Shown piece after piece: positions 8,003 through 11,876 of a stretch of DNA of 64,000 nucleotides. This DNA is from an uncultured Gemmatimonadota bacterium (GTDB lineage: Bacteria; Gemmatimonadota; Gemmatimonadetes; Gemmatimonadales; Gemmatimonadaceae). The notes below the pieces were generated by a model. That model ran no database searches, was not told the origin of the DNA, and saw nothing but the letters and a program-made list of their open reading frames with translations. The DNA is taken from contig CADEDA010000005.1 in NCBI GenBank assembly GCA_902825965.1, forward strand, positions 65,409 through 129,408, in the 5' to 3' direction. Position numbers and translations under genes: made by a program. Each line of letters starts with the position of its first letter. Position 1 is the first letter of the stretch.

Positions 8003-8815
8003 ATGATCGTCGCTGCCTGTGTCGAACCGCAGAAGCTCACGCGCCTTCGCGGAGCGGTTGGGGAATCCCACCGCCTTCACGTCGCACTCGATTGGCAGCA
8101 CGCCGACTCCATCATCCGCCGGCAGCCGGTGGACGTGATGGTGGTCGACCCGCAGTTCGGGTCATCCGAACCGCGCACGGACGCGATTCGCGCCCTCCGT
8201 TCCCAGTTTCGGTCGGTTCCGTTCGTGGTTTACTCCGTCCTTGCGGCCCAGACGCTGAAGCCCCTGGTGGAGCTCGGTCGGGATGGGATGGAGCAGCTGG
8301 TCCTCTACGGCGTGGACGACGATCCGCGCCAGCTCCGGCGCATGCTCGAGCGGCAGCCCGGCGTGGCGCTCGCCGAGAAGCTCATCTCCCGCTTGCGGGT
8401 CCGTTTGCGCGGGCTGCCGGCCGACGTCTCACGTGCCGTCGAGCGCGTGATCCACACGCCGGCGGCGTTCAAGGGGGTGCCCGACCTCGCGGCCGCCGCG
8501 AACGTCTCGCGCCGCACGATCTACCGGGAGTGCGAACGGGCGAGCCTCGCCTCGCCGCGCGAGATCATCGCTGGCGCCCGCGTGCTCCGTGCCTACGCCT
8601 TCCTGCGCGAGTCGGACTACTCGATCGAGGACGTGGCCGAGCATCTGCGGTTCTCGAGTCCGCACCACCTGACCAAGACCATGCGCTGGGCCTGCGGCAT
8701 GACGACGGCGCGGGCACGCGACCGGATCGCGCCGGATGAGTTCGTGTCGCTCCTCTGTGAGCGGCTGCTGCCGATGCCGAATGCCACGTCCCGCGCACTC
8801 GATGCCGACCTCTGA
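8003..8815 (+). CDS. AraC-type transcription regulator with receiver-like N-terminal domain
   Basis: 270 residues. The N-terminal ~115 residues have a receiver-like pattern (VMVVDP with one Asp, later VPFVVYSVL and LVLYGVDDD) but lack the full acidic pocket and the conserved Lys, so it is probably a pseudo-receiver. The C-terminal ~100 residues carry two helix-turn-helix units: LAAAANVSRRTIYRECERA and YSIEDVAEHLRFSSPHHLTKTMRWACGM. The second matches the AraC C-terminal helix pattern. It starts downstream of a direct-repeat operator candidate that may be its own target, and its 3' end overlaps the next gene by 14 bases, which implies translational coupling to a response regulator. Confidence 0.82.
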   Translation: MIVAACVEPQKLTRLRGAVGESHRLHVALDWQHADSIIRRQPVDVMVVDPQFGSSEPRTDAIRALRSQFRSVPFVVYSVLAAQTLKPLVELGRDGMEQLVLYGVDDDPRQLRRMLERQPGVALAEKLISRLRVRLRGLPADVSRAVERVIHTPAAFKGVPDLAAAANVSRRTIYRECERASLASPREIIAGARVLRAYAFLRESDYSIEDVAEHLRFSSPHHLTKTMRWACGMTTARARDRIAPDEFVSLLCERLLPMPNATSRALDADL

Positions 8816-9206
8816 CGCGGCGCGACCGCGGATCCTGCTGCTCGACGATGACGCGGCGGTCGCCAAGGCACTGGCGGCCGTGCTCTCGCGGGCGGGATAC
8901 GCAGTCACCGTGGCGGGCCATGCACGCGAGGCCGAGGAGTTGTTGGCCGAGCGATTCGATGCGTTGATCCTCGACCTGCGGATGCCAGGGATGCGCGGCG
9001 ACGCGTTCTACTTCCTGGCGAGCGTGCGCCAGCCCTGGCTCAAGCACCGCTCGCTGTTCATCACGGGTGACATCACCGCGCAGGCCGAGGAGATCGTGGC
9101 GGCGACGGGCTGTGCGCTGCTGCACAAGCCGTTCAAGGGCGAGGACCTCGTGCTGGCGCTGCTGCCGATGGCCCCGCTCGCCCCGCGCATCGAGCGCACG
9201 GGCTGA
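8802..9206 (+). CDS. Single-domain response regulator (CheY-like)
   Basis: 134 residues, starting at ATG 8802 inside the end of the AraC-type gene. It is a complete receiver: acidic pocket DDD at residues 15-17, phospho-acceptor Asp58 in LILDLRMPGM, Thr88 in FITGD and Lys109 in LHKPF. There is no output domain, so it must act by protein contact or as a phosphate relay. The nearest possible partner is the kinase-less dimerisation protein at 9879. The pseudo-receiver regulator encoded just upstream is another. Confidence 0.9.
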   Translation: MPTSDAARPRILLLDDDAAVAKALAAVLSRAGYAVTVAGHAREAEELLAERFDALILDLRMPGMRGDAFYFLASVRQPWLKHRSLFITGDITAQAEEIVAATGCALLHKPFKGEDLVLALLPMAPLAPRIERTG

Positions 9207-9223: not shown

Positions 9224-9832
9224 TCAGGACTTCCACTTCCGCAGCGTCCCGAGTGCGCTCGCCAAGGCGCGGCGCTCGTCGTCGCTGCTGGCGTCGGCCA
9301 AGAGCATCTCGTAGGTCCCCAGCGCCAGCTTGAGCGCCACCGGGTCGTTCTCGGCGCTGGCCACGCTGGTCGCGTTGTCGGCGAGGGCGGCGTGGGCGAG
9401 CTTGTCGTCGGGGAATCGCGTGGTCACCTGCTGCCAGCGCGACATGCGTCCGCGTGGCGACGACTCGGTGAGTGCCCAGAGGTGCCAGGCGGCGCGATTG
9501 GCCGGATCCGCGGCCAAGGCGCGTCCGGCGATGTCGCCGACCACGTCCGGCCCGCGCCCGGTCAGCCAATAGGCGTTGGCGAGCGCGACCAGCGCAGCGG
9601 CGTTGTCGGGGTCACGTTCGACCACGCGCTCGTAGACGGGGCCGGCCACCTCATGCATCTCACGATACGGCTCGACGGCGGCGATCAGCTCGGCGGCGCC
9701 ATCGGCCGTCGCGGGTGTGTCGGCACAGACGGCGTCGAGCCGCGCCAGCAGCTTGGGAATGTCGGCGTCGGACCGATACTCCTTCACGATGGCTGCCACG
9801 GCAGCCCGCGCATCTCGTGCGGATCGAACCAT
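9224..9832 (-). CDS. TPR-like protein of unknown function
   Basis: 202 residues starting at ATG 9832. TPR-like helices are visible (AGPVYERVVERDPDNAAALVALANAY; later GRALAADPANRAAWHLWALTES), suggesting three or more repeats acting as a protein-binding scaffold. There is no signal peptide or membrane segment. It is convergent with the response regulator (18-base gap) and divergent from a mini histidine-kinase-like gene; its ATG lies within the palindrome CCATGG, which also contains a possible ATG for that gene. Confidence 0.75.
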   Translation of the reverse strand: MVRSARDARAAVAAIVKEYRSDADIPKLLARLDAVCADTPATADGAAELIAAVEPYREMHEVAGPVYERVVERDPDNAAALVALANAYWLTGRGPDVVGDIAGRALAADPANRAAWHLWALTESSPRGRMSRWQQVTTRFPDDKLAHAALADNATSVASAENDPVALKLALGTYEMLLADASSDDERRALASALGTLRKWKS

Positions 9833-9878
9833 GGCAGTAAGCTATCGGGTCGTGTGGACCCGTGGCACCGGAGAAGTC

Positions 9879-10073
9879 TTGGACACCCCCCCAGAGAAGA
9901 AGGGGCTGCAACACAGCCTCAACAACCCGCTCGCCGCACTGCTGGCGGAGCTGCAGCTCCTCGAGATGGAGGACCTGCAGCCGGACCATCGGGAGTCGGT
10001 GGAGCGGGCGCTCACGCTCACCCGGCGGCTCATCCAGATCGTCCGCGAGCGCGTTCCGCCGCACCAGATTTGA
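9879..10073 (+). CDS. Stand-alone histidine-kinase dimerisation/phosphotransfer (DHp) domain
   Basis: 64 residues if translated from TTG 9879, which has GGAG five bases upstream; an upstream in-frame ATG (9831) would give 80 residues. The sequence LQHSLNNPLAALLAELQLLE (His12) matches the H-box of HisKA-type kinases with the H-x-L-N-N-P variant, followed by a second helix (HRESVERALTLTRRLIQIVRER) as in a DHp hairpin. There is no ATP-binding (HATPase_c) domain, and the gene ends before rho. It could accept and pass on phosphate (Spo0B/ChpT-like) or act as a dimerisation partner. It lies ~700 bases from the single-domain receiver gene. The start choice and function are inferences. Confidence 0.65.
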   Translation: MDTPPEKKGLQHSLNNPLAALLAELQLLEMEDLQPDHRESVERALTLTRRLIQIVRERVPPHQI

Positions 10074-10083
10074 ACGCATAGGG

Positions 10084-10112
10084 TTGCGCGCCCGTCCGGA
10101 CGAGGACATACT
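10084..10112 (+). promoter_or_regulatory. Possible housekeeping promoter for rho
   Basis: TTGCGC (10084-10089) and CATACT (10107-10112) are separated by 17 bases in the 231-base gap upstream of rho. If used, the transcript would have a leader of about 190 bases. Rho genes are often autoregulated through such leaders, but no specific element is recognisable here. Confidence 0.3.
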
Positions 10113-10304
10113 GTTCGTACCGCGTCACGATGAGGCCTGTGCCCATCGGACGACTGCGCCCTCAGACGCTCCCCCGCCGCGCCCCTGCGCGGCGCTCCCC
10201 GACCCGCTGGGTCGGCTCGGCTGGAATCTCCGGACGCTCGCTTCACATCGCTGGATTGCGGTCTTCGCATCCGCCACGACCCCTGTGGTCCCACACCCGT
10301 TTGC

Positions 10305-11876
10305 ATGACTGAACGTCGCCGTCCGCCCCGCCGTGGGCGTGGAACGCGTGCTCGTGCGGAAAACGCACCTGACGCCACGCTCGAAGCCGATCCGTATCTC
10401 GACAGCAGCGCCCCTGCGGCCAGTGCCGCGACAGAGCCGTCGGCGCCACCGCCGCCAATGGCTGAAAGTGTGCCAACGTCGTCGGAGGCCCCGCCGGAGA
10501 ATGCCGAGGCGGCGAGCAACGGCCCGAGCGCGAACGGCAGTGGCCGCGACGCACAGAACGGACACCGTCCATGGCAGGAGCGCGGAGACCGACCGGAGCG
10601 CGGTGGCCGCGGACGACGGGGACGACGCCAGCGCGGGCGTGGCAGGGGACGCGACGACCGCGGCGACCGTCCGGAGCGCAATGAGCGCGGAGACCGTCCG
10701 CACAACCAACACGATCGGCATGATCCGCGGGACGCCGGCCCGCCGGTGATCCTGGTGGTGGATGGAGAGGCCACCGGCTGGTTCGACCCCGCACGCGACG
10801 CGGGCTTCATCCGCCGCGCCGAGTACAGCTACCTGAACGAACCCGGCGATGCCTGGGTCCCGCCGCATCTGGTGCGGCAGTTCGGCCTCCGCCGCGGCGA
10901 CCTGCTCGCCGCCCGCACGGGCCATGACCATCGCGGTCGCATGTCCGTGGCCGAACTGGTCTCCGTCAACGGCCTGCCGCCCGATGCCGACCTGCGGCGC
11001 ACCGACTTCCAGTCCCTGACGGCGTCGTATCCCGACCGTCGCCTCACGCTCGAGACGGGACGCCCCGCCAAAGGTGGCCCCGAGTTGACGCGTCGCGCCA
11101 TCGACCTCATCGCCCCGATCGGGTTCGGGCAGCGCGCCCTCATCGTGGCCCCGGCGCGCGCCGGCAAGACGATGCTGATGCAGGCGATCACCGAAGGCAT
11201 CGCGATCAACCACCCGACGGCGACGCTGCTCATCCTGCTCGTCGACGAGCGCCCCGAGGAAGTGAGCGAGGCGATCTCGTGGGGGGTGGGCGAGGTGATC
11301 GCGTCGAGCTTCGACCAACCCGCCAAGCGGCACGTCGAAGTGGTGGAGATGGTCATCGAGCGCTCGCGTCGCCTGGTCGAACAGGGCAAGGACGTGATCA
11401 TCGTGCTCGACTCGCTGACCCGCATGGCCCGCGCGTTCAACACCGCCGAGCGCGGCACCGGACGCACCCTCTCCGGCGGTCTCGACACCTCGGCGATGGC
11501 CAAGCCCAAGGCGTTCTTCGGCTCGGCGCGCAACATCCTGCCGCAGCACGGTGGCGGCTCGCTCACGATCATCGCGACGGCGCTCGTGGAGACCGGGTCG
11601 CGGATGGACGACGTGATCTTCGAGGAGTTCAAGGGCACGGGCAACTGCGAGATCAAGCTCGACCGGTCACTCGCGGAGAAGCGCATCTTCCCCGCGTTCG
11701 ACATCGCGACCTCGGGCACCCGCCGCGAGGAGAAGCTGTACAAGGCCGAGCAGATCGACGCGATCTACACGCTGCGGCGGGGGCTGCAGCAGATGCCGCC
11801 GCAGGCGGCGATGGAGTGGCTCATCAAGCGTATCGCGGGCACCACGTCCAACGACGCGCTGTTGGCCGGCCTCTAG
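10305..11876 (+). CDS. rho: Transcription termination factor Rho
   Basis: 523 residues. The conserved RNA-binding and ATPase parts start near residue 147. The Walker A segment is VAPARAGKTM (about 281-290; usual form APPKAGKT), Walker B is IIVLDSLTRMARAFN, and the secondary-site loop is GGLDTSAMAKPKAFFGSARN. The first ~146 residues are disordered, first Ala/Pro/Ser-rich and then Arg/Gly/Asp-rich with RGDRPER repeats. They replace the short helical N-domain of E. coli Rho. Such basic Arg/Gly-rich insertions occur in Rho of high-G+C bacteria and are thought to add RNA affinity. A hairpin terminator follows directly. Confidence 0.96.
   Translation: MTERRRPPRRGRGTRARAENAPDATLEADPYLDSSAPAASAATEPSAPPPPMAESVPTSSEAPPENAEAASNGPSANGSGRDAQNGHRPWQERGDRPERGGRGRRGRRQRGRGRGRDDRGDRPERNERGDRPHNQHDRHDPRDAGPPVILVVDGEATGWFDPARDAGFIRRAEYSYLNEPGDAWVPPHLVRQFGLRRGDLLAARTGHDHRGRMSVAELVSVNGLPPDADLRRTDFQSLTASYPDRRLTLETGRPAKGGPELTRRAIDLIAPIGFGQRALIVAPARAGKTMLMQAITEGIAINHPTATLLILLVDERPEEVSEAISWGVGEVIASSFDQPAKRHVEVVEMVIERSRRLVEQGKDVIIVLDSLTRMARAFNTAERGTGRTLSGGLDTSAMAKPKAFFGSARNILPQHGGGSLTIIATALVETGSRMDDVIFEEFKGTGNCEIKLDRSLAEKRIFPAFDIATSGTRREEKLYKAEQIDAIYTLRRGLQQMPPQAAMEWLIKRIAGTTSNDALLAGL

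Follow-up and report, generated by a model that had tools for sequence, protein, structure and literature searches.

A conserved, solitary histidine kinase dimerization hairpin without an ATPase domain, encoded next to rho in Gemmatimonadota

Results

Gene content of the locus

The window, i.e. the whole stretch of 64,000 nucleotides analyzed here (contig CADEDA010000005.1 of an uncultured Gemmatimonadaceae bacterium), contains a short gene encoding a histidine kinase dimerization (DHp) domain directly upstream of a rho gene (Table 1). The original prediction of an open reading frame at 9879-10073 was confirmed as a real gene, which starts with TTG at 9879, has a stop codon ending at 10073 and encodes a product of 64 amino acids (LDTPPEKKGLQHSLNNPLAALLAELQLLEMEDLQPDHRESVERALTLTRRLIQIVRERVPPHQI). 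Its G+C content by codon position (0.77/0.35/0.89) is typical for a coding sequence of a GC-rich genome. Most of the orthologues from the same genus exhibit a matching TTG or GTG start behind a conserved CCGGAG, which supports TTG 9879 as the first codon; an upstream ATG at 9831, also permitted by the frame, was set aside in favor of the TTG that agrees with this conserved arrangement. A promoter scan of positions 9600-10500 called none, and the one terminator-like site found in this region, on the minus strand within the DHp gene, was given no weight. By inspection, the receiver-like part of the AraC-type protein is devoid of the usual acidic pair and Lys.

Table 1. Genes and features surrounding the DHp gene, in window coordinates
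Feature	Coordinates	Strand	Remarks
AraC-type HTH protein	8003..8815	+	receiver-like N-terminal part by inspection; overlaps the response regulator gene; same syntenic block
Single-domain response regulator, candidate non-obligatory partner	8802..9206	+	134 aa; acidic pair, phospho-Asp, Thr and Lys present by inspection
TPR protein	9224..9832	-	divergent from the DHp gene; syntenic with DHp throughout the family
Shine-Dalgarno-like CCGGAGA region	9869..9875	+	precedes the TTG start; GGCACCGGAG conserved in most congeneric orthologues
Solitary DHp (HisKA) protein	9879..10073	+	64 aa; phospho-acceptor His12, Ser13 at H+1, Asn16 at H+4
rho-B, divergent second Rho paralogue	10305..11876	+	directly downstream, 231 nt past the DHp stop; ~145-aa R/G/D-rich N-terminal extension

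Domain content and predicted fold

HisKA (PF00512) was the single Pfam domain detected in the 64-aa protein, covering residues 9-56 (E=1.6e-8) with a score of 34.9 bits, above the curated cut-off of 26.9. The Pfam scan revealed neither HATPase_c nor an HPt profile match, the NCBIfam scan nothing beyond a weak kinase match below cut-off, and the comparison of the DHp alignment profile (A2) with PDB sequences no match at 0.01. There is no room for a sensor domain, and the protein stops at the hairpin, where a sensor histidine kinase would have its CA/HATPase_c domain. The original prediction of a stand-alone DHp domain without ATPase is borne out by both the HisKA-only Pfam result and the end of the reading frame after the hairpin. 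It had also called for a predicted helical hairpin, which AlphaFold2 modeled from 44 natural sequences as two helices spanning residues 5-29 and 35-58 (mean pLDDT 85.3), i.e. two helices rather than the four-helix chain of an HPt domain. Consistent with the PF00512 definition of two antiparallel helices, the first carries the phospho-acceptor His and the Pro at H+5 (H12 and P17). The top matches among solved structures (Foldseek) were the DHp domains of Arabidopsis ERS1 (4mtx) and then GacS (7n0e), with a probability of 1.00 and an rmsd of 0.7-0.9 A across ~53 residues; the accompanying E-values were weak (0.23), which is to be expected with a short helical query of 64 residues.

An intact gene rather than a broken kinase

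Eight genomes of the same genus encode DHp orthologues with 62-89% identity, all 62-64 aa long with a common stop position, so that the many orthologues of similar length for which the original prediction had suggested a search do exist. Pairwise dN/dS values among these orthologues were roughly 0.1-0.5, with dN well under dS in every pair. The 231 nt between the DHp stop and the rho start contain no ATPase or kinase remnant in their frames and are too short to hold an ATPase domain. Beyond the hairpin, the DHp relatives have short tails at most, and a degenerate Bergerat-fold C-terminal domain is absent. A frameshift, which orthologues continuing into an ATPase domain would have indicated, was not seen; since the hairpin is predicted and no orthologue runs on in this manner, neither of the two outcomes named beforehand as speaking against a solitary DHp domain occurred. 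Even though the gene is short, has a non-ATG start and is apparently present as a relic in one congener (L026, G010), a frameshifted or decayed kinase was rejected and a spurious reading frame is extremely improbable, considering the length and mostly also the start shared by eight congeners, the purifying selection, the conservation of the hairpin throughout an order and the downstream region without a kinase remnant. The product of 9879-10073 is a genuine and conserved DHp protein that is solitary by nature.

Distribution and architectures

GTDB 220 (one genome per species) was scanned with the DHp alignment by way of one conserved peptide pattern, which yielded 46 loci in a survey that is not exhaustive because it is based on this single pattern. 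Forty-four were ATPase-less hairpins, all from records named Gemmatimonadota except for one named 'bacterium' that matches G038 of the same order, and the remaining two were full kinases from Kapaibacterium and Pedobacter. All 44 relatives matched PF00512 at E<=0.01, with HisKA as their only domain. Within the phylum, the DHp profile matched 128 of 298 genomes at E<=1e-8, a count whose weakest matches include some ordinary kinases as well as receiver-HisKA proteins. The DHp relatives across this order of soil bacteria in the Gemmatimonadota all end after the hairpin, and none adds an ATPase domain. Several relatives within the window's family have extra N-terminal sequence, in some cases a receiver-fold domain and a long helix leading into the DHp; by inspection these fused receiver-like domains are degenerate, and two are devoid of the usual Asp. 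Such N-terminal fusions to an ATPase-less DHp were observed at L116:5548-6165, L121:1768-2406, L084:3983-4669, L090, L091, L100 and L103, and they adjoin rho-B wherever the extent of the contig allows. In the literature searched, no family of solitary DHp proteins was found.

Among the 39 HisKA proteins in the window's genome, the 64-aa protein is the only solitary short one. Of the remaining 38, all except one extend more than 140 residues beyond the HisKA match, nearly all with recognizable N or G boxes. The exception is a second ATPase-less protein of the receiver-HisKA type (G000:C4:173531-173704) with a conserved tail (...SVEYVKGQRMVD), and similar receiver-HisKA proteins were present in other genomes of the family (L020, L024 and L025). 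The best same-genome BLAST matches of the DHp protein and of the receiver encoded at 8802 share one 705-aa frame (C29); since the DHp match to C29 was barely better than the next match, this was not taken as a sign that both derive from one hybrid kinase.

Residue pattern around the phospho-acceptor histidine

The H-box with an H-x-L-N-N-P variant described in the original prediction is present; in its exact form it reads H-S-L-N-N-P, without the usual E/D right after the His. H12, P17, L18, L22, A23, E24 and Q26 are invariant in 44 sequences. The H+1 position, typically acidic in autokinase-competent HisKA domains and not part of the fold definition, is occupied by Ser13 in the 64-aa protein and by Ser, Ala, Thr, Gln, Arg or Gly in 25 of the 26 window-type sequences, whereas Asp was found in 18/18 sister-family sequences and E/D in all 37 other His-bearing HisKA domains of the window's genome (Fisher p about 1e-16 for window-type versus the latter, with relatedness of the sequences ignored). 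The Asn at H+4 is retained in 25/26 window-type and 18/18 sister-family sequences, and Asn16 thus provides the Thr/Asn expected of a DHp-type phosphatase of phosphorylated response regulators (RR~P). In four HisKA kinases, the acid at H+1 was required for autokinase and dispensable for phosphatase activity, while the Thr/Asn at H+4 was required for phosphatase and dispensable for kinase activity (PMC3510030). What is new here is that the window's family has lost the autokinase-only acid at H+1 while keeping the His and the Asn at H+4.

Linkage to rho

In the window's family, the genes are ordered TPR, REC/AraC, receiver, TPR (opposite strand), DHp and rho. In all relatives from this family with a sufficiently long contig, the DHp gene precedes rho and shares its strand, and this order persists even where the receiver and AraC genes are gone. 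In the sister families, DHp was divergent from rho in all 56 same-contig pairs (55 within 2.3 kb), as typed from the matches listed, after omission of genomes in which a contig was broken or a rho match was not listed. In the rho tree, the neighbor of DHp belongs to the divergent paralogue (Rho-B) for the window's family and to the canonical one (Rho-A) for the sister families. Either DHp moved between rho genes or the linkage arose twice; the DHp groups of the window's family and of the sister families are likely orthologous as judged from their sequences. A DHp gene linked to rho, with two different paralogues, is likewise new here.

Two rho genes, one for canonical Rho-A and one for divergent Rho-B, were present in most genomes examined through much of the phylum (window 10305-11876 and G000:C2:11810-12034), and the small-genome congeners G001, G012 and G013 have kept two rho genes and are devoid of DHp. 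In the sister families, a conserved gene for a protein of ~94 aa is located immediately 5' of DHp and divergent from rho-A (L048:3601-3882, L101:5672-5956, L108:3872-4156 and others).

The neighboring receiver as a partner

The original prediction had suggested that the DHp protein passes phosphate to the receiver encoded at 8802. This receiver is syntenic in many relatives, yet its gene lies outside the DHp transcription unit with an opposite-strand TPR gene in between, and no orthologue was found in the DHp-bearing genomes G002, G005, G011, G027 and G034, two of which are rated 100% complete. The role of a dedicated partner is therefore not upheld: with five genomes keeping DHp in the absence of a receiver orthologue, the 8802 receiver is not an obligatory partner, although it may be one partner. 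No conserved receiver gene linked to DHp across relatives was found.

Discussion

Our preferred reading, tentative as it is, considers the 64-aa protein an autokinase-dead solitary DHp that would act on phosphorylated response regulators, either as a phosphatase or sink or as a transferase. On the basis of its residues, it would probably remove or relay phosphate rather than add it. The hairpin cannot use ATP and, in members of the window's family, is also without the H+1 acid needed for HisKA autophosphorylation; two copies of it would pair into a four-helix DHp bundle. Such a dimer would dock on a phosphorylated receiver like any DHp, and the aspartyl phosphate of the receiver would either be hydrolyzed or be taken onto His12 and then returned. 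A free kinase-only residue next to a fixed His and a fixed phosphatase residue fits the expected trace of a kinase-dead phosphatase or transferase, and a phosphatase or sink would account for it no less well than the phosphate-passing role originally predicted. The loss of the acid at H+1 could also be a simple relaxation, which would be equally compatible with phosphotransfer. The Asp that the sister families keep at H+1 speaks against one role, limited to phosphatase activity, throughout the order.

The isolated DHp domains of EnvZ ('domain A') and NtrB resemble the 64-aa protein in being HisKA hairpins without a CA domain. According to PMC3510030 (citing Zhu 2000 and Kramer & Weiss 1999), such a domain is enough to dephosphorylate the cognate regulator, and in vivo it confers a phenotype of constitutive phosphatase activity. 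On the preferred reading, the 64-aa protein would be a natural counterpart of these constitutive phosphatases. The fragments were engineered from full kinases and carry the H+1 acid, in contrast to a free-standing natural gene that has lost it. Phosphatase activity is greatly raised by the CA domain (PMC3510030), and the isolated hairpin may therefore be a weak phosphatase.

Less probable, if a serious competitor, is a phosphorelay in which the receiver of a hybrid kinase would donate phosphate to His12 of the DHp dimer for transfer to a downstream receiver, in the manner of Spo0B or ChpT without their pseudo-ATPase domain. Along these lines, the protein may accept phosphate from an unlinked kinase and hand it onward. 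The invariance of His12 (44/44), the long C-terminal regions typical of hybrids in many HisKA proteins of the genome, the syntenic single-domain response regulator in many relatives and the receiver-like domain fused to DHp in several of them are all consistent with a relay, while the five DHp-bearing genomes without the syntenic receiver, the degenerate state of the fused domains and the retention of the phosphatase residue at H+4 argue against it. Spo0B (Bacillus) and ChpT (Caulobacter) have DHp-type hairpins that dimerize and carry phosphate on His without autokinase activity. Spo0B retains a degenerate form of the C-terminal Bergerat-fold domain. ChpT retains a C-terminal Bergerat-fold pseudo-ATPase domain (PMC3433190), whereas in the 64-aa protein nothing follows the hairpin. 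HPt proteins are also ATP-less His carriers of phosphorelays, but as monomeric four-helix bundles they belong to another family, of which the 64-aa protein has no Pfam match.

A rather unlikely role is that of a hetero-dimerizing modulator, in which the free hairpin would bind the DHp of full-length kinases (one or several), by pairing or docking, and thereby block or retune these kinases as RetS does with GacS. In its favor, the excised GacS DHp bound by RetS (7n0e) ranked second among the structural matches, and a free hairpin would have its dimerization face exposed. Both partners of the GacS/RetS complex are domains of large sensor kinases. Hetero-dimerization would leave the fixed phospho-acceptor His and H+4 Asn alongside a variable H+1 unexplained.

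A regulator tied to Rho, modulating Rho activity or rho expression perhaps through its phosphorylation state, appears slightly more doubtful still. Linkage to rho-B in one family and rho-A in others, i.e. to two paralogues, points in this direction, but linkage does not equal interaction, synteny across an order can last by inertia, and the small-genome congeners have two rho genes without DHp. We know of no precedent for a DHp regulator tied to Rho.

Returning to the preferred reading of an autokinase-dead DHp acting on phosphorylated regulators, stand-alone DHp domains have so far been familiar chiefly as laboratory fragments that become constitutive phosphatases. If the reading is true, the 64-aa protein would be an evolved version of this fragment experiment, and a dedicated RR~P phosphatase or transferase of very small size. 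We consider it a long shot that the free-standing, kinase-dead DHp of Gemmatimonadota, as a dedicated phosphatase or a hub for phosphate, has a functional coupling to Rho-dependent termination, with two-component phosphate flow tuning Rho or rho expression. The linkage to two rho paralogues is a concrete and testable hint at a connection between two-component signaling and transcription termination in a little-studied phylum.
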